From Planctomycetales bacterium (GTDB lineage: Bacteria > 4484-113): a DNA stretch of 64,000 nucleotides. Shown here one piece after another: positions 46,742 to 57,479 of this stretch; within the stretch, counting starts at the first letter, position 1; each line of letters opens with the position of its first letter. Below the pieces are notes generated by a model. The model had not been told where the DNA came from, did not search any database, and worked only from the letters and a program-made list of their open reading frames with translations. The stretch lies in the NCBI GenBank assembly GCA_030606285.1, contig JAUWGS010000002.1, positions 1 to 64,000 of the forward strand, written 5' to 3'. The position numbers were made by a program, and so were the translations under genes.

Positions 46742-47034
46742 GAGAACTGCAACTAAGTATAGCAGCAACCCGCTCCCTCAGCGCCTTCTCCTGCTGACGA
46801 CCGCTCCCCTTCCTGCCTTCTACTTCCTACTGCTCTTCCCTCGCTACCCGCTATTTACCCGCCATAGCTTTAGCGACGGCGGGCTCGCTACTCGCTACTT
46901 CCCCTTCCCCTCCCTCTTCGCTTTCTCTTGCTGACGACTGACGGCTGACGCTTGCCCGCCATAGCTTCAGCGAAGGCGGGACTGATAGCTGACTCCCTCT
47001 AGCCTAATCCCCGCGCATTGGGTAGAATGATTTC
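46742..47034. repeat. Repeat-filled region upstream of tRNA-Sec
   Basis: Two palindromes of the same type lie at 46858-46883 and 46955-46980 (CCCGCCATAGCTT / AGCGA.GGCGGG). Text-like repeats surround them (CTGACGACTGACGGCTGACG, ACTGATAGCTGACTCC, CGCTACTCGCTACTTCCCC), related to those at 45197 and 62677. A TAGAAT at 47023-47028 may be the -10 box of tRNA-Sec. Confidence 0.65.
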
Positions 47035-47127
47035 GGAGGTTGATGGGGACTGGTGTCTCCCGCGGTCTTCAAAACCGTCGGCGCGGGGTTCCCTGCGCGG
47101 TGGGTTCGATTCCTGCCACCTCCGCCA
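47035..47127 (+). tRNA. selC: tRNA-Sec (anticodon TCA)
   Basis: A 93-nt gene with encoded CCA. The acceptor stem begins GGAGGT and closes with ACCTCC; the anticodon arm CGGTCTTCAAAACCG presents TCA; the extra arm is long (CGGCGCGGGGTTCCCTGCGCGG region); the T arm contains GGTTCGATTCC. The length, UCA anticodon and large variable arm are those of bacterial selenocysteine tRNA. No selA, selB or selD is in the window. Three partial copies of its 3' end lie downstream (49441, 52054, 54678). Confidence 0.95.
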
Positions 47128-47351
47128 CTACATTAGCTTTCCGCCTGAGTCGCCGACAACGGCCAAGCCGGCCTCCGAAGGGCTCTATGGAAGTGTTATA
47201 ATCAAATCTGAAAGGGGAAAGCCACGCATGTCGAGTTGAAATTGCCTTGAAAGTGGCAATACTAAGACTTGGCGGCAGTATGATTGCGGTAACAAATGGT
47301 GGTCATTAGTTCGATTAATTTCTCTGCGGGCGATTCAACGAATGTGGTTGT
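47128..47351. other. Gap between tRNA-Sec and the deacetylase gene
   Basis: The base composition drops in GC here. A TATAAT near 47195 lies ~150 nt before the deacetylase ATG and could start its transcript. TTGAAATTGCC...GGCAATACT near 47236 is a small inverted repeat. No open frame is convincing. Confidence 0.4.
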
Positions 47352-48368
47352 ATGAAATCACTATCGACCTTAAAACGTAATTCGAGAGGCACTTTCGTCG
47401 TTTCCCTTGATTTCGAACTTCATTGGGGAGTACGTGATAAGAGAACGATAGAGGGATACAGACGTAATCTCACAGGCGTTCGTAGGGTTGTGCCGCGCAT
47501 TCTGGAGCTGTTCAGACATTATGAAATCCACGCAACATGGGCGACTGTTGGATTTCTGTTTTTCGATAATAAGGGCGATCTAGTCAAGAACCTTCCTGCG
47601 TTGAAACCAGATTATTCCTGCTCCAGACTCACGCCTTACAGCGATATTAGCAACATTGGCGAAAACGAGGATAGAGACCCTTTTCATTACGCGCGTTCAA
47701 TAATCGATAAGATTGCCGGCGAGCCCAATCAAGAAATCGCCACACACACATTCTCCCACTACTATTGCATGGAAAAGGGGCAGGACATAAAGGCGTTCAG
47801 ATCGGATATCGAAGCCGCTGTCGCTATTATGAAAAAGTTCGGTCTCGCCCCTGAAAGCATGGTATTTCCAAGAAACCAGGTGAATCCGGGATACCTTAAC
47901 GTGCTGGAGGAATACGGGATCACCTCTTACAGGGGTGCCCCGTGGTTTTGCGTTGGGAAAGAAGAATCTTTTTTCTCCTACGTCAGAGCTGCCGCAAGAT
48001 TGCTGGATACTTACGTCCGCATCTTCGGGCATAACGCGTATTCGTATGAAACAATACAGAGGAGTATACCGTTCAACATTCAGTCAGACCGCATGCTCCG
48101 TCCGTATTCCCGGCGCTTGAGCATGCTTGAACCGCTGCGCCTTCGACGAATTCTATCCGATATGGAATTTGCGGCCAGGAGGAAGCGGGTTTTTCATCTT
48201 TGGTGGCATCCTCATAACTTCGGAGTCGAGCAAGAGAGAAATTTGGGTTTTCTGAAGAAAATCCTGGTTCATTTCGCAAAACTCCGCGAGCTGCACGGAA
48301 TGATGAGTTCCAATATGAGTGAACTGTCTCGTGAACTCATGCAAGCACGAAGCGCCGAGTCTCTATAA
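47352..48368 (+). CDS. Polysaccharide deacetylase-like protein
   Basis: A 338-residue NodB-fold protein. The first motif is VVSLDFELHWGV (Asp-x-Glu in place of the usual Asp-Asp), then IHATWATVGFLFF, the metal motif EIATHTFSHYYC (H-x-x-x-H) near residue 130, FPRNQVNPGYLNVL and HLWWHPHNFG at the end. The family removes N-acetyl groups from glycans such as peptidoglycan or surface sugars. Codon use is AT-richer than in the flanking genes, which suggests acquisition. With the formyltransferase 46 bp downstream it forms the first module after tRNA-Sec. Confidence 0.85.
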   Translation: MKSLSTLKRNSRGTFVVSLDFELHWGVRDKRTIEGYRRNLTGVRRVVPRILELFRHYEIHATWATVGFLFFDNKGDLVKNLPALKPDYSCSRLTPYSDISNIGENEDRDPFHYARSIIDKIAGEPNQEIATHTFSHYYCMEKGQDIKAFRSDIEAAVAIMKKFGLAPESMVFPRNQVNPGYLNVLEEYGITSYRGAPWFCVGKEESFFSYVRAAARLLDTYVRIFGHNAYSYETIQRSIPFNIQSDRMLRPYSRRLSMLEPLRLRRILSDMEFAARRKRVFHLWWHPHNFGVEQERNLGFLKKILVHFAKLRELHGMMSSNMSELSRELMQARSAESL

Positions 48369-48414
48369 TCGGAGCTGTAATATGCTCTCAACGAACACTT
48401 GGGGCTAAGACAGC

Positions 48415-49197
48415 ATGTCGAAAACACAAGAAAAGAGAATCATTATGCTGGTCGGCCCCGGTCAGTCCACACGCATTCTTTACCACGCGTTGAAAAACGA
48501 CTTGAGGATTGAAAAAGTCATCATTGAGGAGCGGGTCTCAAGATACAAGTTTCTGAAGCGCAGGGCGAAGAAACTCGGTTACTGGACCGTACTTGGCCAA
48601 GTACTATTCCGCTTGATCGTGGTGCCGTGTTTGAAAGCTGGTTCCATGAAGCGGGTAAAAGAGATCAAGGACCACTATGGATTAACTGATTCAGACATCC
48701 CGGAGAGCGTTACTTGTCGCGTCGCATCCGTTAATGCGGACGAGACAATCGCAATTCTCAAGGAAATCAATCCTGACGTCGTGATTGTGAACGGCACCCG
48801 GATTATCTCGCGTAATGTTCTCAACAGTGTTCCCGCGAAATTTATAAACGTGCACGCCGGAATTACTCCGTTATACAGAGGCGTGCACGGAGCTTATTGG
48901 GCGATAGTGCAAGGCGATATTAAGGCCTGTGGCGTAACCGTGCATCTAGTGGATGCGCGAATAGACACGGGAGATGTACTCGAACAGGCGGTCATACCCT
49001 TCGGGAAAGAGGATAATTTCACCACCTATCCAATGCTGCAACTGGCTGTCGGAATACCCCTGCTCAAAAAAGCTGTTCGGGACGCATTAGAAGATCGGAT
49101 TGAACTGAAATCCGGCGCAGAAGGAGTGTCGCGAATTTGGACCCACCCGACTCTTTGGGAATACTTACGGTGGCGGTTGTCCCGTGGGGTGAAGTGA
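48415..49197 (+). CDS. Formyltransferase-family protein
   Basis: A 260-residue protein with the formyltransferase catalytic core NVHAGITPLYRGVHGAYWAI (Asn and His of the catalytic triad) and the following VTVHLVDARIDTGDVLEQ (Asp). The substrate region PDVVIVNGTRIISRNVLNSVP precedes it. Homologues include methionyl-tRNA formyltransferase and sugar-amine N-formyltransferases; the N-terminus lacks the FMT pattern, so formylation of an amino sugar is more likely, fitting the neighbouring deacetylase. AT-rich codon use as in its neighbour. Confidence 0.85.
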   Translation: MSKTQEKRIIMLVGPGQSTRILYHALKNDLRIEKVIIEERVSRYKFLKRRAKKLGYWTVLGQVLFRLIVVPCLKAGSMKRVKEIKDHYGLTDSDIPESVTCRVASVNADETIAILKEINPDVVIVNGTRIISRNVLNSVPAKFINVHAGITPLYRGVHGAYWAIVQGDIKACGVTVHLVDARIDTGDVLEQAVIPFGKEDNFTTYPMLQLAVGIPLLKKAVRDALEDRIELKSGAEGVSRIWTHPTLWEYLRWRLSRGVK

Positions 49198-49440
49198 AAT
49201 GCATTCAGAAGCAATATCGTGATAGATACTTGCATGGTATTGAATGATCGAGCCCGGCATTTTCACAGATTTGACTGTGAAGAGGTGAGCTTTGTTGATG
49301 TCTTTTGCTCGGCATGAGGCTCTTCCGCGAATACTGGCGCAAACACGATATCGCGTACATGAAAAAACGCGGGCCGAACAGTTTCCGCGCAGCGATTTCA
49401 CGACGCGTTCGGTCACAGCCATCTGTAAGCGAATCAACAG
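49198..49440. other. Gene-free stretch ending the first module
   Basis: An open frame from an ATG at 49314 (MRLFREYWRKHDIAYMKKRG...) runs for ~45 codons and then into the tRNA-end repeat. It has no ribosome binding site and no recognisable family; it may be a gene fragment left by insertion. No other signal is seen. Confidence 0.35.
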
Positions 49441-49523
49441 CCTGCCACCTGCGCCACTTCATTAATCCCGCCACGCCACGCTCCCGTAACCGTCTTTTCT
49501 AAACGAACCTGTTAGTATTGAGC
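49441..49523 (+). repeat. Repeat copy A: degenerate tRNA-Sec end plus conserved promoter region
   Basis: 83 bp that match 52075-52157 at 81 positions. The left part (CCTGCCACCTGCGCCACTTC) is the tRNA-Sec 3' end with one change; the right part contains CGTAACCGTC and CGAACCTGTTAGTATTGAG. It lies just upstream of the first ECF sigma gene. The tRNA part looks like an attachment-site remnant; the rest may be the promoter read by the sigma factor itself. Confidence 0.8.
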
Positions 49524-49577
49524 AGACTCGTTCGTCTGAGTCTATGAGCGGCCGTTTCCGCTGGCAATTGCGCAACC

Positions 49578-50099
49578 ATGAGAGAGTCGCGTTTAATCAG
49601 GTTCAAGAACCTGCTTCACAAGGCTCTGCCTGCTGCAAGCCGTTTCGCCCGGCGGCTCACCGGCTCTGAGGACGGCGAAGCCGACCTGATGGCTGAAGCA
49701 GTTGCTGCGGCCTTCCAGAACTTCCATCGGCTGCGCGACGAATCGCGGTTCAAGTCGTGGCTATTTAGCATCATCCGCAACACCCACATCACCTTGCTCC
49801 GTCGCAGGAAACTGCGACCTGTGGTGCCGCTAGAGCGCATCGGTGAAACAACGACCGGCGTATCGAACCCACACGACCAGGAGTGGCTGGATGGAGTGCT
49901 CTCGCTGCTTCGCTTGCAGGAGAGGGAGGCTGTTATCCTCCACTACCTGGAGGGCTTTTCCGTTGCCGAAGCGGCACGTATCGCTCGCACCAATCCTGGT
50001 GCGCTAAACATGCGGTTGGCTAGAGCACGGAAACGGCTCGCGGAACTCATCGGTCATCCCGGAGTGAAGAGCGAGCTGGAGGAGAAGAACAACAGATGA
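49578..50099 (+). CDS. ECF-type sigma factor, cassette 1
   Basis: A 173-residue extracytoplasmic-function sigma factor. Region 2 (~20-80) shows DLMAEAVAAAFQNFHRLRDESRFKSWLFSIIRNTHITLLRRRK; region 4 (~105-160) shows LLRLQEREAVILHYLEGFSVAEAARIARTNPGALNMRLARARKRL. It resembles the factor at 52212-52712 along its whole length. The next gene overlaps it by 4 bp (ATGA) and encodes a membrane protein that is the probable anti-sigma partner. Confidence 0.93.
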   Translation: MRESRLIRFKNLLHKALPAASRFARRLTGSEDGEADLMAEAVAAAFQNFHRLRDESRFKSWLFSIIRNTHITLLRRRKLRPVVPLERIGETTTGVSNPHDQEWLDGVLSLLRLQEREAVILHYLEGFSVAEAARIARTNPGALNMRLARARKRLAELIGHPGVKSELEEKNNR

Positions 50100-52045
50100 A
50101 CGAGCGTCGAAACACGGACGAGCTTCTGCAGGAAATGAACGAAACACATCGGAATCACGCAACGAAACTCGATGCGGATTCGCTGCTTATGCACGCGCTG
50201 GCGGCACGGCCCAAGCGGTCGCGCTGGGCGGCGCTGGGCTGGATAGCTGCTGCGCTTGTTATCATTGGCATCGTTCTGAAACCGATGCTCCCCGCGATGG
50301 GCGGCAAGCCCTACGTTGACCACAATCTGGGAGGAGTCCGCGTGAGGACGTTCCCTTCCCCCGGTGAATACCATCCGGCGATCTATCATCAGTGCTCCCT
50401 TGGAGATATGGAGTTCTTCATTGTCCAGTATGAGGAGCAACAACCTGAAGGCCGCTTTGCAGCTACGATTAAAGTGGACGGGCTATTTTGCCAGTTCTTT
50501 CCCAGTGATACGGCGTTGGTCGAGCCGAACATTTCAGAGGTCGAGGAGTTGCATCCTCATATCGAGATTGTCCGTGAGGTGTCTGCACAAATGGATTCGG
50601 TCAGGATGTGGCCAGCTGACCTGTGGAGCATCAGGCCTTTTGTGAGAAAGCTGGTTCGCGGCGAGTATAGGCTTGCGTATACAGAGCCTGTAGGTGCCGG
50701 ATACGTGCTCGCCCCCAAGCTGCTTTACGGTGAAGATGTGGGTTACCGGTTCGAGGCATACGGTCTTGGTTCAGTGGGAACCGGCTCCGACGAGCCGCTG
50801 CCAATCAGGCTATACATCTGGCCGCACGGTTTCACTCTTCAGGCCTTCGTCAAACCGAATGAATACAAACTCTACCTAAGAGGCGACTCACGCGGATATG
50901 ACGCATATCAGACCTCGGAACGATGGGGGGAAGGAGTGCGTGAAGGCATGTCCCGTATCAATGATTGCATGCGTCAATACCCGCAGCTCCTGCCGCTACT
51001 CGGGGATGAAGTCTCGTCCGCTTTCGCGCAGAGTCTACGACAGACGGTGGACGTGGTCTGCGAAGGCGAGCCACGAGCGCTGTACCGTGCTGACGATTAT
51101 GAGCTGTACCACTGGATGGAGCCCTGGCGACCTGCACACCTGGATGAAGACGAGGAAAGCAGACAGAAAGAAAGCCTCGCGGGTCTGAGGCCGGAGTTCT
51201 CATTCGAATGGCAGGGATTGACGATCTCCAGCCACAAGGACTGGCAGAAATTGACGCTGAAGCGGGGGGATCTGGAGTTTAGTTTTCTCACGCCATACTG
51301 GTATCATGCCGGCGTCTATCTGCGCCGCAACGACGAACGTCTCTTGACAAGGATGTTCGTGCTCAACGAGGGAATGTTCCCTGAGCTGACGTGCGAAGTA
51401 AGGCCCGAGGTCGAGGCGCTGCTGGGCGAGGTTTCCGCCATGGCAAGGGACGCTCTGGACGCCCCAGTGAAACTGTGGCCCGCCGGGGACTTCCCACAGG
51501 AGTACGTGACCAACTGGCTCAGGGCACTCCGCGACCGGCGGGTGGCAGTGTGGGACTCGCACAGCAAAGCTAAGCTCTATACGGTCATACAGCGTGAAGG
51601 AGGAACATCGGAACTGATAATCAACGTTGGATTCCCCACACCCGAACTGAATCTCCGCTTCATGCGACGCGGCTTTGAACTGCTCAACATAGGAAACGGG
51701 TACTTCGTGTCGCAGCTTGACGGAGAACTCAGGGCAGTACGGACCGCAGAGGCCAAGCCTGAAGTTCTGACACCGGCGAATCTACGGCGGGCTGAGACGG
51801 TATTGGGTTTTCTGAGTCAGGCGGAGTGGGACATCCCATCGGTGGTTCGACCGAGCATCGATGCTTTTCACGACTTGTTGGGTACCGGGGCGTACCCGCC
51901 AGCCGAATTGGTGTCCGAGTTGCCGCCAATACGGTGGTCTTGGAGAGCTTTGAACGATCGCAATGATATCATCGGTTTCGCGTACTCGCTCCCCACTATG
52001 GTTCAGAATCTGGAGCGGCAGGAGGCGTCCACCGCCGAGGAGTGA
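50096..52045 (+). CDS. Large single-pass membrane protein, probable anti-sigma factor, cassette 1
   Basis: A 649-residue protein: ~43 cytoplasmic residues, one membrane helix (WAALGWIAAALVIIGIVL, 44-62), and ~585 residues outside. The short cytoplasmic part has MNETHRNH at 14-21, in the same place as MRNTHENR in the cassette 2 protein; no zinc-binding HxxxCxxC motif is present. The two extracytoplasmic parts share blocks such as KLWPAGDFPQEYVTNWLRAL / SAWPEGKVPEPYLESWLSAI and YPPAELVSELPPIRW / LPPAETVTELPKLTW. Translational overlap with an ECF sigma gene points to an anti-sigma/sensor role, by inference. It ends 8 bp before the next tRNA-end repeat. Confidence 0.8.
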   Translation: MNERRNTDELLQEMNETHRNHATKLDADSLLMHALAARPKRSRWAALGWIAAALVIIGIVLKPMLPAMGGKPYVDHNLGGVRVRTFPSPGEYHPAIYHQCSLGDMEFFIVQYEEQQPEGRFAATIKVDGLFCQFFPSDTALVEPNISEVEELHPHIEIVREVSAQMDSVRMWPADLWSIRPFVRKLVRGEYRLAYTEPVGAGYVLAPKLLYGEDVGYRFEAYGLGSVGTGSDEPLPIRLYIWPHGFTLQAFVKPNEYKLYLRGDSRGYDAYQTSERWGEGVREGMSRINDCMRQYPQLLPLLGDEVSSAFAQSLRQTVDVVCEGEPRALYRADDYELYHWMEPWRPAHLDEDEESRQKESLAGLRPEFSFEWQGLTISSHKDWQKLTLKRGDLEFSFLTPYWYHAGVYLRRNDERLLTRMFVLNEGMFPELTCEVRPEVEALLGEVSAMARDALDAPVKLWPAGDFPQEYVTNWLRALRDRRVAVWDSHSKAKLYTVIQREGGTSELIINVGFPTPELNLRFMRRGFELLNIGNGYFVSQLDGELRAVRTAEAKPEVLTPANLRRAETVLGFLSQAEWDIPSVVRPSIDAFHDLLGTGAYPPAELVSELPPIRWSWRALNDRNDIIGFAYSLPTMVQNLERQEASTAEE

Positions 52046-52053
52046 GTGATTAA

Positions 52054-52157
52054 CCCTGCGCGGTGGGTTCGATTCCTGCCACCTCCGCCACTTCATTAAT
52101 CCCGCCACGCCACGCTCCCGTAACCGTCTTTTCTAAGCGAACCTGTTAGTATTGAGC
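52054..52157 (+). repeat. Repeat copy B: 39-bp exact tRNA-Sec 3' end plus conserved promoter region
   Basis: 52054-52092 is identical to 47091-47129, that is the last 37 bases of the tRNA-Sec gene (extra-arm end, whole T arm, acceptor 3' strand, CCA) plus two bases after it. 52075-52157 matches copy A at 81 of 83 positions. The element separates the two sigma/anti-sigma cassettes and has the form expected of an att site at a tRNA gene. Confidence 0.88.
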
Positions 52158-52211
52158 TAGTTCATTCATCGTAGTTAGTGTGCGGGCGGATTGCGCGTCC
52201 GCGGTAACGCC

Positions 52212-52712
52212 ATGAGACCCGGTGAGCTTTCGCGGTTTGAAGCGCTTCTGGAGGAGGCGCTGCCGGTCGTGAGCCGGGTGGCGCGTGGTCTGGCGGGAAG
52301 GGCGCACGCGGAGGACTTGCTGGCAGAATCGGTAGCGTCCGCACTGGTGGGATTCCGCTCTCTGCGGGACGAAAGCCGCTTCACGCCCTGGCTGCTGACT
52401 ATCATCCGCAATTGCTATCGCATGATGCTGCGGCGGCGCAAGCTGCGCCAGATTGTTCCGCTGGAAGCCATAACGAATCATACGCAGGGCGGGACGAATC
52501 CCGGCGATGAGGCGTGGCTGGACGGTGTGCTGGCGATGCTGCGCCCCGTTGAGAGGGAAGCGGTGGTGCTGCACTATCTGGAGGGCTTTACCGTTGCAGA
52601 AGCGGCGCGCATCGCGCGTACCAGCCCCGGAGCGCTGAATATGCGCCTCGCGCGCGCCCGCATGCGCCTATCGGAGCTGTTGGTGAGGAGAACTAACGAT
52701 GCAAAAGAATGA
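52212..52712 (+). CDS. ECF-type sigma factor, cassette 2
   Basis: A 166-residue ECF sigma factor and clear paralogue of the one at 49578. Region 2: DLLAESVASALVGFRSLRDESRFTPWLLTIIRNCYRMMLRRRK; region 4: LRPVEREAVVLHYLEGFTVAEAARIARTSPGALNMRLARARMRL. The ATG at 52212 aligns exactly with the start of the cassette 1 protein (MRPGELSRF / MRESRLIRF), so the TTG 21 bp upstream is not used. Its 3' end overlaps the partner gene by 14 bp. Confidence 0.93.
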   Translation: MRPGELSRFEALLEEALPVVSRVARGLAGRAHAEDLLAESVASALVGFRSLRDESRFTPWLLTIIRNCYRMMLRRRKLRQIVPLEAITNHTQGGTNPGDEAWLDGVLAMLRPVEREAVVLHYLEGFTVAEAARIARTSPGALNMRLARARMRLSELLVRRTNDAKE

Positions 52713-54669
52713 TGAACTGAACGGCATAATTGATGAGATGCGCAATACGCACGAGAATCGTAGCCGCCCACCTGATAAGAACCGGATGGAGCAATCGGTG
52801 ATTCGTCGGCTCGTATCGGGGATTCGCCTCGGACGGATGATCATTGCGCTGCTGGTGGTATTCATCGCGGCGGCGCTCGTCGCCGGTGTCTACTGGAAGT
52901 TCTTCCGCCCAACTGATGCAAAGGATGGAAAGGTAACGTGGAATGTCGGCTCGGTTGAGGTCACTAGGTACATCCCGGATGGCGAGATGGAGAATCCGCC
53001 TGTTTATTACCTAGTTTCCTACCACGACCGGCTGCTGCACGAGGGCTCGTTTTTCCATATCATCGAATGTGAGGAGCCCCTGGAAGGTTGCCGCTACATC
53101 GCCAGGGCGATTGATGACGACGGGTGTTATTTCTTCTTCCCGGCAGACGAAAACGTGCCTAATGAGCACTTTAACGTGCCTAATGAGCACTTTAACGTTC
53201 ATGGGATGCATACCCTGCCAATGTACAAAATCTCCAGCGCTGCCGAGAAGATGCTGGCGGTGAAGCTCTGGCCTGCGCCATTGTGGAAGCTGCGCCCGGT
53301 GATAGAAAAGCTCAACGCCTACAGGTATCGCCGGACCAGTCCGGGCCCCTATTCGTGTTACATCACTGCAACCAAAAAGCATTTCGGCAACGAATACGTG
53401 CACACTCTACGCGGCTTGGATTGGGGCGCGGCTTACATGGTGAATCTTACGGTTTGGCCTGACCACTTTGCTATTCAGCCCTCTACTAGCGGTCAGTTCA
53501 CCTTGCTTGGCGACGAATCAGGCTACACGGCATACCAGCAAGAGAAGTACTGGGGCTCAAATGTGAAAGAGACGATTATCCGGTCGAAAAAATCGCTATG
53601 GATGCACTCTCAGTTCCTTGCGCTGTCTCCGCGCAGCGTGTCGCCGGAGTTATCGCGCAGCCTGTCAGGGGTTGTGGACGTCCTCTGGCAGTACGGTCCC
53701 GGCAGCCTGCAGAGCGCCAGCTTGAATGAGCAGGAAATGATGCTAAGACCGTGGTACGAGGAGGGTCGGACACCGGGGATGGAGAAGCGACGTAATGAAT
53801 ACCGGAATACGCGTCCCGACCTTATACCGTGCACTATCGGCGGCGTTGAGATATCTAAACCAAAGGGTCGTAGCATGAAGCTTGCGCGCAGCGATACCGC
53901 GCTTTATGTCGAGAGCAACTATACGAGCGTCGGCACCTACGTTGACCTTCAGGTGAACGAGGAGGACAAGCTCAAGTTCTACATCCGGCACGAAAAACCG
54001 TACCCGGTTCTGGAAACCACGTTTGACGAGGAAACAGAAGCGCTGCTCGCGGAGGCTGCCGACATCGCAAGCGCGGTTTTGGGCGAGCCCGCAAGTGCTT
54101 GGCCTGAGGGCAAAGTACCCGAGCCATATCTGGAAAGCTGGCTGAGCGCCATCGCTTCACGCAGGATCGTATTGCAAACAGAGTCACACCTGGTGTTCGT
54201 CTACTCGGAGATTCACTGGGAAGGCTCAGAGCCTGCAATGGCGATGAGTTTTGGCGAATACAAGTATCCTGACATTGACCTTTTGCTGGAGCCGCGCGGC
54301 TTCCAGCTTCACCTGAAAACATCGGGGAGTCTGCTGGCTTGCGAGTCGGGCAAGATGAAGCTGTTGCAGGCTCCGGGCGGCAGAGAGGAAGTCCTGTCAG
54401 TTCGTGAGCTTGAAAGACTCAAAGCGTGCGTTGCAGCTCTTGATGCTCTCAAGGACTACAGCCCTGCCAGAGTCTCGCCCAGATCAGAGTTCTCATACGA
54501 AGGCGCGTTAGGCCAGAAGCTGCTGCCCCGGATACTTCCAGGCATAGAAGAGCTTCGCTTATTCCTTGCTGACCCGATGCTCCCGCCCGCTGAGACAGTC
54601 ACCGAGCTTCCCAAGCTTACCTGGGATTACGATGCAGTCCTGGCGCGAAACGAGCTGCTCCGCAACTAG
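52699..54669 (+). CDS. Large single-pass membrane protein, probable anti-sigma factor, cassette 2
   Basis: A 656-residue protein with the same build as its cassette 1 paralogue: cytoplasmic tail with MRNTHENR at 14-21, one membrane helix (MIIALLVVFIAAALVAGVYW, ~47-66) and a ~590-residue extracytoplasmic part. A 21-bp tandem duplication at 53153-53194 repeats NVPNEHF. The sequence is strongly diverged from the paralogue except for short blocks. It ends 8 bp before tRNA-end copy D. Sensor/anti-sigma role is inferred from the overlap with the sigma gene. Confidence 0.8.
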   Translation: MQKNDELNGIIDEMRNTHENRSRPPDKNRMEQSVIRRLVSGIRLGRMIIALLVVFIAAALVAGVYWKFFRPTDAKDGKVTWNVGSVEVTRYIPDGEMENPPVYYLVSYHDRLLHEGSFFHIIECEEPLEGCRYIARAIDDDGCYFFFPADENVPNEHFNVPNEHFNVHGMHTLPMYKISSAAEKMLAVKLWPAPLWKLRPVIEKLNAYRYRRTSPGPYSCYITATKKHFGNEYVHTLRGLDWGAAYMVNLTVWPDHFAIQPSTSGQFTLLGDESGYTAYQQEKYWGSNVKETIIRSKKSLWMHSQFLALSPRSVSPELSRSLSGVVDVLWQYGPGSLQSASLNEQEMMLRPWYEEGRTPGMEKRRNEYRNTRPDLIPCTIGGVEISKPKGRSMKLARSDTALYVESNYTSVGTYVDLQVNEEDKLKFYIRHEKPYPVLETTFDEETEALLAEAADIASAVLGEPASAWPEGKVPEPYLESWLSAIASRRIVLQTESHLVFVYSEIHWEGSEPAMAMSFGEYKYPDIDLLLEPRGFQLHLKTSGSLLACESGKMKLLQAPGGREEVLSVRELERLKACVAALDALKDYSPARVSPRSEFSYEGALGQKLLPRILPGIEELRLFLADPMLPPAETVTELPKLTWDYDAVLARNELLRN

Positions 54670-54677
54670 TCTTCCCA

Positions 54678-54692
54678 CCACCTCCGCCACTT
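54678..54692 (+). repeat. Repeat copy D: 15-bp tRNA-Sec 3' end
   Basis: CCACCTCCGCCACTT equals the final acceptor strand and CCA of tRNA-Sec plus the two bases that follow it in copies A and B. It lies right after the cassette 2 membrane gene and closes the array. Confidence 0.65.
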
Positions 54693-54907: not shown

Positions 54908-56421
<1,514 letters not shown>

Positions 56422-56649
56422 TTAGGGAGTAACAGGGGAGCGCCGCGCCTGGCGCTGGCGTATCCTCCACTCCTAGGTCGGCGGTTGCTGCAAGGCTCTG
56501 CGCTGTAAGTAGCGGGAAACCGCGATGGATAGCGCAACTTTGAAGGCGGACGATGCCGGGAATTCCCGGCCACGCCGCAACCGGTCCTCCCAATTCCCTT
56601 GCTTTCTTCTACTCGAAGCCCGCACCCGCGGGCTTTTGGCGGCTGTCGA
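56422..56649. other. 16S trailer with terminator
   Basis: No gene. The trailer carries CGCCGCGCCTGGCGCTGGCG near 56441 and ends in the 21-bp element CCAATTCCCTTGCTTTCTTC (56590-56610) followed by a terminator hairpin (56617-56637). The same element and a hairpin recur at 57429-57479. Confidence 0.6.
56617..56637 (+). terminator. Terminator of the 16S transcript
   Basis: A 7-bp stem AGCCCGC / GCGGGCT with a CACC loop, then TTTGG. It lies just past the 3' end of the HEPN gene on the other strand and could serve both directions. Confidence 0.75.
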
Positions 56650-56988
56650 TTAACGACCTGTCTTCAGGATGTCGGAAATAGCTCGTTTCGCCTCAGGAAG
56701 CCTGCCTTTTATGGTCTTCCATACGAGCGCGTAATCAACACCGAAGTATGCGTGAACGAGCCTGTCTCGCATCCCCGCCATTTCAGTCCACGATAGGTTC
56801 TGTGCTGATTGCTTGATGCTCTCAGGAAGATTCTTTACAGCTTCACCTATTACTTCCAGCTTCCTCACGACCGCGCTCCTTGTCTTGTCATCGCTGAGAA
56901 ACGCCCTTTCATCCATTCCCTCAACGAAGCTTTCTATGCTCGCAATCGCTTCCACAATGTCCCGCAGATAGAGCGTGAAATCCCTCAT
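56650..56988 (-). CDS. hepT: HEPN-domain RNase toxin of a HEPN/MNT pair
   Basis: A 112-residue HEPN (DUF86) protein. The catalytic motif R-x-x-x-x-H is MRDRLVHAYFGVD (Arg ~76, His ~81), with KLEVIGEAVKNLP as the other family motif. HepT-type toxins cut RNA unless AMPylated by the partner MNT enzyme. Its start overlaps the MNT gene by 4 bp. The pair lies between two copies of a terminator-linked repeat, as if inserted downstream of the rRNA gene. Confidence 0.92.
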   Translation of the reverse strand: MRDFTLYLRDIVEAIASIESFVEGMDERAFLSDDKTRSAVVRKLEVIGEAVKNLPESIKQSAQNLSWTEMAGMRDRLVHAYFGVDYALVWKTIKGRLPEAKRAISDILKTGR

Positions 56989-57275
56989 ATGCTGAGTGCC
57001 TCGCTCAATATCCCGTCGCGCAGCTCTGCCTTCAACGCGCGCTCGGTTACCAGGTCAACCTTTCTGCCGAGCTTGCGCTCCAGGAACTCAGCAAGACGGA
57101 TGAAGTCAAGAAGGTCAGCGGTTTCAGAAAGCTCAACGAGGATGTCAATGTCGCTCGCTGCGCTTTCCTCTCCACGGGCGAAAGAGCCGAAGACCTTCAG
57201 GCTCTTCACCTTGAAGCTATCGCGCAGCTCCTCGCTCAGGTTCCTGAGTTGGTCAACTGTCGCAAAATTCTTCAT
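56985..57275 (-). CDS. mntA: MNT-type minimal nucleotidyltransferase antitoxin
   Basis: A 96-residue minimal nucleotidyltransferase: KSLKVFGSFARGEESAASDIDILVELSE holds the GSFARG...SDIDILVE active site with both metal-binding Asp. MntA antitoxins AMPylate the HEPN toxin. The ATG at 57275 is preferred over the TTG just before it. On the minus strand TATACT (57313-57318) and the palindrome CAAACATGTTTG (57289-57300) lie upstream and may be the promoter and an operator. Confidence 0.92.
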   Translation of the reverse strand: MKNFATVDQLRNLSEELRDSFKVKSLKVFGSFARGEESAASDIDILVELSETADLLDFIRLAEFLERKLGRKVDLVTERALKAELRDGILSEALSI

Positions 57276-57288
57276 CAAGCAACCACTC

Positions 57289-57300: not shown

Positions 57301-57428
57301 CAGGCACGCTAAAGTATATATCATGTGTCGCCCACGACCTACTTTGCCTACAGAACCATTGGGGAAGGCGCCGCGCGGAGCCATCCACAGGCTGGTAAAA
57401 TCCGGCCCCGCCGCCGGTGGGCAAGCTA

Positions 57429-57479
57429 CCAATTCCCTTGCTTTCTTCTCACGCCCGCCCCAGCGGGCTTTTGCGTTTT
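57429..57479 (+). repeat. Second copy of the 16S trailer element with terminator
   Basis: 57429-57449 repeats the 21-bp element at 56590-56610 exactly over CCAATTCCCTTGCTTTCTTC; it is followed by GCCCGC / GCGGGC (57453-57468) and TTTTGCGTTTT. The two copies bracket the HEPN/MNT pair in direct orientation. Confidence 0.8.

Follow-up and report, generated by a model that had tools for sequence, protein, structure and literature searches.

The DNA downstream of the tRNA-Sec gene (selC) in this planctomycete is arranged as tandem gene modules separated by tRNA tails, and is probably an additive, tRNA-anchored, integrase-less island of CIME-like kind that grew by insertion at the selC end while its repeats recombined with one another. 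The analysis covered a window of 64,000 nucleotides (the whole stretch of DNA, to which all coordinates refer), the remainder of the genome, and a sister species (G001), the only genome of the same genus that was compared. The features of the island are as follows.

47034–47126, + strand: tRNA-Sec gene (selC), intact, found by ARAGORN; left border of the island
47352–48368, + strand: module 1, polysaccharide deacetylase-like protein (Pfam PF01522, E 4.5e-7)
48415–49197, + strand: module 1, formyltransferase (Pfam PF00551, E 7.9e-19)
49441–49458, + strand: displaced selC 3′ end with one mismatch, CCTGCCACCTGCGCCACT
49459–49524, + strand: first copy of the repeat block that follows the tail (98% identity to copy 2)
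49578–50099, + strand: ECF-type sigma factor 1 (PF04542, PF08281; TIGR02937 above cut-off)
50096–52045, + strand: putative anti-sigma 1, a single-pass membrane protein whose start overlaps the stop of sigma factor 1; paralogue of 52699–54669
52054–52092, + strand: selC 3′ end copy of 39 bp, 100% identical
52093–52158, + strand: repeat block behind the tail, copy 2
52212–52712, + strand: ECF-type sigma factor 2 (sister-species ortholog, 82% aa)
52699–54669, + strand: single-pass membrane protein, putative anti-sigma 2 (sister-species ortholog, 68% aa)
54676–54692, + strand: outermost selC 3′ end copy, also present at this position in the sister species; forms the island's right border

The selC gene and the displaced copies of its 3′ end

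The first-pass annotation of this DNA had described an intact tRNA-Sec gene, three partial copies of its tail, and large membrane genes whose ends respect the borders set by those copies. All three descriptions held. The gene found by ARAGORN also matched Rfam RF01852 (47035–47123, 70.3 bits). The genome encodes SelA, and selC is therefore probably in use. Copies of the tail were located at 49441–49458, 52054–52092, and 54676–54692. The first large membrane gene stops at 52045 and the next copy begins at 52054; the second stops at 54669, with the next copy beginning at 54676–54678, placing the stops 6–8 bp ahead of the copies.

Five matches to a 16-mer of the selC tail, with up to three mismatches allowed, were present in the window versus 0.74 expected, and none of 100 shuffled sequences reached that number. 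This count, the genome search, and the controls of the tRNA scan given below ruled out a chance origin of the repeats. Neither the tail nor the block behind it was found elsewhere in the 2.3-Mb genome; both are confined to the selC locus, which ruled out a dispersed genomic repeat and the occurrence at many unrelated loci that had been named earlier as an argument against a site-specific insertion point. A phage-borne attP of the same sequence was rejected, there being no exact match in IMG/VR. Tail copies are not a general property of selC, as none were found behind eight actinobacterial selC genes with a similar 3′ end or behind selC in three further genomes (G004, G007, and G009). Behind the selC gene of G003, which belongs to another family of the order, lies a pure tandem array (L039, 8125–8393) of 3.3 copies of an 82-bp unit made up of the selC tail and 61 nt.

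The copies themselves had been correctly described, but not their extent, since the repeated unit is longer. Starting in the tail copies at 49441 and 52075, a block of 84 bp (tail part included) is 98% identical, and this identity stops abruptly, within ~20 bp. The proteins encoded behind the two blocks are only 62% (sigma factors) and 28% (putative anti-sigma proteins) identical. Because the blocks are so much more alike than the proteins, a recent duplication of the whole unit is excluded, and the tail and the 84-bp block appear to have been homogenised, by exchange or conversion between copies, after the genes diverged. The amplification of sigma cassettes raised in the first-pass annotation consequently fails in its simple recent version, the cassettes being old paralogues behind a nearly identical upstream block. 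The sequence immediately after selC showed no significant homology to the 84-bp block (p 0.72).

Just upstream of the island, a REP-like inverted repeat, CCCGCCATAGCTTTAGCGACGGCGGG, occurs at window positions 46855–46883 and 46952–46980; repeats of this kind recur in this genome and in G001.

Gene content of the modules and the search for a recombinase

Module 1 had been taken for a regulatory cassette, and Pfam assigned it instead a polysaccharide deacetylase and a formyltransferase, which may modify envelope polysaccharide. With a GC content of 48.5%, versus 57% around it, the module is a compositional outlier. The deacetylase gene has a 78% DNA match at a different locus in the sister species, where the pair of genes is part of an exopolysaccharide cluster, with surE on one side and a glycosyltransferase on the other. 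The same cluster is present in this genome without the pair, surE and the glycosyltransferase being ~150 bp apart. Because the loci differ between the two species, the pair was either relocated in one lineage or gained separately. No direct repeats that would explain its movement were found at the exopolysaccharide locus.

In both remaining modules the sigma gene overlaps the gene for its membrane protein, a protein that is short on the cytoplasmic side and long on the outer side. Both modules had been called sigma/anti-sigma cassettes. The sigma half of this call was confirmed by Pfam and TIGR02937, whereas the anti-sigma role of both large membrane proteins, which matched no Pfam or NCBIfam model, is suggested by gene order. 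No homologs of the putative anti-sigma proteins were detected in GTDB contigs, and AlphaFold gave a model of quality too low for interpretation (pLDDT 58). Contig C6 (L037, 4123–5874) carries a third paralogue, which has no adjoining sigma gene and is missing most of the cytoplasmic extension, a combination that would fit sigma binding by that extension. Each sigma/membrane-protein pair may constitute a signal-responsive transcription switch with an extracellular sensor. Putative anti-sigma 2 also carries an in-frame 21-bp tandem duplication (window 53152–53193).

No integration genes were found inside the selC modules, in agreement with the earlier description of tandem modules without an integrase. 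The first-pass annotation had also proposed a search for a distant tyrosine recombinase. Two such proteins are encoded in the genome, neither of them in the island; both scored best with XerD/XerC models, one fell below every curated cut-off, and neither is a dedicated integrase. No serine recombinase or Resolvase-domain protein was found in the draft genome, which is 91% complete, and an integrase may be missing from the draft for that reason. The recombinase picture in G001 is the same. The modules showed no decayed integrase and no ICE remnant, and the genome yielded no helper element.

These results bear on the class of element. An ICE, IME, or prophage at selC was rejected because no integrase of its own lies next to the tRNA, and an integron cassette array because both tyrosine recombinases score far below the integron integrase (IntI) cut-off. 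A tycheposon combines a tRNA border with a dedicated tyrosine recombinase (PMC10872708); this class was rejected as well, the XerC/XerD-like pair being all that is present. Of the features of an additive tRNA island or CIME array, the following were found: an intact tRNA at one border, the tRNA 3′ end directly repeated both between the modules and at the opposite border, and modules free of integration genes. Relatives differ in the presence of a cassette at tRNA-Glu (see below); the selC region of the sister species falls in an assembly gap.

The sister species and the other tRNA genes

Contigs C85 and C49 of the sister species match the flanks on either side of the island, and the neighbouring genes are collinear. 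The selC gene, module 1, and sigma 1 fall in the assembly gap between these contigs. Beyond the gap, sigma 2 and anti-sigma 2 are followed by the tail GCCACCTCCGCCACTT and then by the same 16S leader. Because the outermost tail copy has been kept in G001, it is older than the split of the two species. The modules would be ordered by age, with the oldest nearest the 16S gene and the youngest nearest selC.

The 16S gene occupies 54908–56421, and no 23S gene is present in the rest of the window (to 64000), so that the rRNA operon is possibly unlinked. Farther on, a HepT-like/nucleotidyltransferase (HEPN/MNT) pair (56650–57278) is enclosed by two copies of the 16S 3′ flank and its terminator (window 56587–56638 and 57426–57473). 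The sister species has one copy of this flank, and neither the HEPN/MNT pair nor the 438-aa open reading frame that follows it.

The tRNA genes of the genome were listed, and ~10 kb downstream of most of them was searched for the gene's own 3′ end. Displaced 3′ ends were found at six of the 47 tRNA genes scanned (Sec, Pro, Leu, Leu, Glu, and Ser). The scores were bimodal: tail copies of these six tRNAs scored 17–42, no other tRNA exceeded 11, and the reverse-strand control never exceeded 15. The cassettes at the tRNAs other than selC (loci L126, L148, L151, and L152) contain one or two genes. Between tRNA and displaced tail lies HicAB at tRNA-Glu and tRNA-Pro, GIY-YIG at tRNA-Ser and one tRNA-Leu, and a decayed GIY-YIG gene at the other tRNA-Leu. 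HicAB at tRNA-Glu was named from sequence; for the tRNA-Pro pair, HicA was above the Pfam cut-off and HicB was a weak match. The arrangement is thus neither special to selC nor confined to regulatory cassettes, as had been supposed at first, since at least five other tRNA genes have displaced 3′ ends behind HicAB or GIY-YIG modules.

Comparison of these sites between species gave varied results. The sister species has an empty site at tRNA-Glu: the sequence that follows the tRNA there matches what follows the displaced copy in this genome, the result that a clean insertion or excision should leave. Because a HicB-like stretch occurs at this tRNA-Glu in G002, a more distant relative, G001 may instead have lost the module. 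The tRNA-Ser comparison is ambiguous, as the GIY-YIG gene is missing from G001 but related sequence flanks the site on both sides. At tRNA-Pro, HicBA and the tail are present in both species; the tRNA and its displaced tail both read TTCGAATC here, and both read TTCAAATC in G001. One T-loop base therefore differs between the species and agrees between tRNA and tail within each, which suggests conversion between tRNA-Pro and its tail at this one site.

The two tRNA-Leu modules have a conserved right end in common, each then being followed by the tail of its own tRNA; therefore, the duplicated tail is that of the target. A tRNA-Leu module is also present in G001, with 90.7% DNA identity. At a contig end of C58 in that assembly (L169/L189), the tail is followed by the start of the tRNA-Leu GIY-YIG module once more; 55 bp of it are repeated, giving a 379-bp unit, as a tandem copy or a circle would produce.

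Proposed growth of the island and comparison with known systems

Serial insertion at selC, the idea put forward in the first-pass annotation, is the best supported: the outermost module and its tail are common to the sister species, and module 1 is a compositional outlier that lies elsewhere there. The direction of events is our inference. The cassettes would have entered one after another at the selC 3′ end, the incoming DNA bringing a 3′ end that re-made an intact tRNA at each insertion. Each insertion would have pushed the old 3′ end and the older cassettes downstream, so that the oldest cassette adjoins the 16S gene and the youngest adjoins selC. Later exchange or conversion between the repeats would have kept the tail and the 84-bp block uniform while the genes diverged, and the same process would have operated at several other tRNA genes of the genome. 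The recombinase may have been supplied from outside by a phage, plasmid, or helper element. Against this reading, the 84-bp identity extends well beyond the tRNA and is longer than the usual att core, the sigma cassettes have a native base composition, and no empty or differently filled selC site was read, selC lying in the gap of the G001 assembly.

Tandem duplication is a possible but unlikely alternative. A native unit starting in the 3′ half of selC (tail, spacer, sigma, and anti-sigma) would have been copied in place by unequal recombination; the genes would then have diverged, conversion would have kept the repeats uniform, and module 1 would be a later, unrelated arrival. The two sigma cassettes are indeed paralogous, in the same order, and behind the same upstream block, the selC array of G003 is purely tandem, and the tRNA-Leu unit of G001 looks tandem too. 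Duplication, however, leaves unexplained the tail-bounded HicAB and GIY-YIG modules at other tRNAs and the empty site in the sister species, as well as the tail copies that close module 1 and the outermost cassette on the right.

A broader reading, which we regard as improbable, is that small units are inserted or duplicated at the 3′ ends of genes for stable RNAs by some trans-acting process of this lineage that is not a classical integrase. The units would range from the geneless 82-bp unit to cassettes of 2.6 kb and would include the 16S 3′ flank duplication around the HEPN/MNT pair.

Homing is very improbable. Here free-standing GIY-YIG endonucleases would cut the T arm of the tRNA, spread by repair, and leave duplicated tails, with other cargo coming along or using the same breaks. 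Three of the six sites do hold a GIY-YIG gene, in one case decayed; two different tRNA-Leu genes share the conserved right end; and the GIY-YIG module is better conserved between species (90.7%) than the neighbouring gene (80%). The selC island and the HicAB modules, however, contain no GIY-YIG gene. No single-domain GIY-YIG protein is known to produce duplications of 20–40 bp. An assembly or binning artefact that joined unrelated fragments at the tRNA tail is hardly credible even for a draft of 36 contigs, and is largely refuted by the independent sister assembly, because the window lies inside one contig of 253,759 bp, the outermost junction is independently present in G001, and the tRNA-Leu and tRNA-Pro modules recur there.

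An additive, integrase-less island grown at selC would have close counterparts. As judged by its sequence, the selC island has the structural features of a known additive kind, and tandem modules without an integrase have already been described. In Dehalococcoides, tandem islands lie downstream of ssrA, bounded by a ~20 bp direct repeat of the 3′ end of the RNA gene, with the crossover inferred in the T loop. An integration module is absent from 15 of the 31 islands, and these 15 were read as cis-mobilizable elements joined by accretion (PMC3146451). The likeness lies in tandem islands behind one RNA gene, bounded by repeats of its 3′ end. Many of the islands there have the serine integrase DsiB, whereas no serine recombinase was found here, and the cassettes here are 0.2–2.6 kb and target selC and at least five other tRNAs.

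Additive flexible islands built from cassettes at tRNAs, with part of the tRNA directly repeated where a cassette ends, are known from Alteromonas (PMC4119200), ‘Ca. Actinomarinales’ (PMC7771536), and ‘Ca. Methylopumilus’ (PMC10872708). As in those islands, several tRNAs are used in one genome, and the cargo in Actinomarinales also includes envelope polysaccharide genes. The island described here differs in its one- or two-gene cassettes, including sigma/anti-sigma pairs, HicAB, and GIY-YIG, and in the 84-bp block that starts in the tail, is common to the copies, and appears homogenised. CIMEs retain att sites, lack integration and transfer genes, and accrete in tandem at tRNA 3′ ends (PMC5704250). 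The integrase-less tandem elements here are alike in this respect, but no decayed integrase, ICE remnant, or helper was found with them.

The pathogenicity islands at selC of enterobacteria are large, are inserted at the 3′ end of the gene, and carry a P4-type integrase next to the tRNA. They share with the present island the target gene and its 3′ end, and differ in their size and their P4-type integrase.

The present case is less usual in how small its cassettes are, in how many tRNAs of a single small genome are used, and in its homogenised block. Cassettes lacking an integrase are already known from tRNA ends. Here several minimal cases (HicAB, GIY-YIG, and sigma/anti-sigma) lie side by side in one small genome, and, with the empty site in the sister species and the hints of concerted evolution of tRNA and tail, the way in which such cassettes move becomes testable within one genus. 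These cases also indicate that sigma/anti-sigma switches and toxin-antitoxin pairs can sit in such cassettes.
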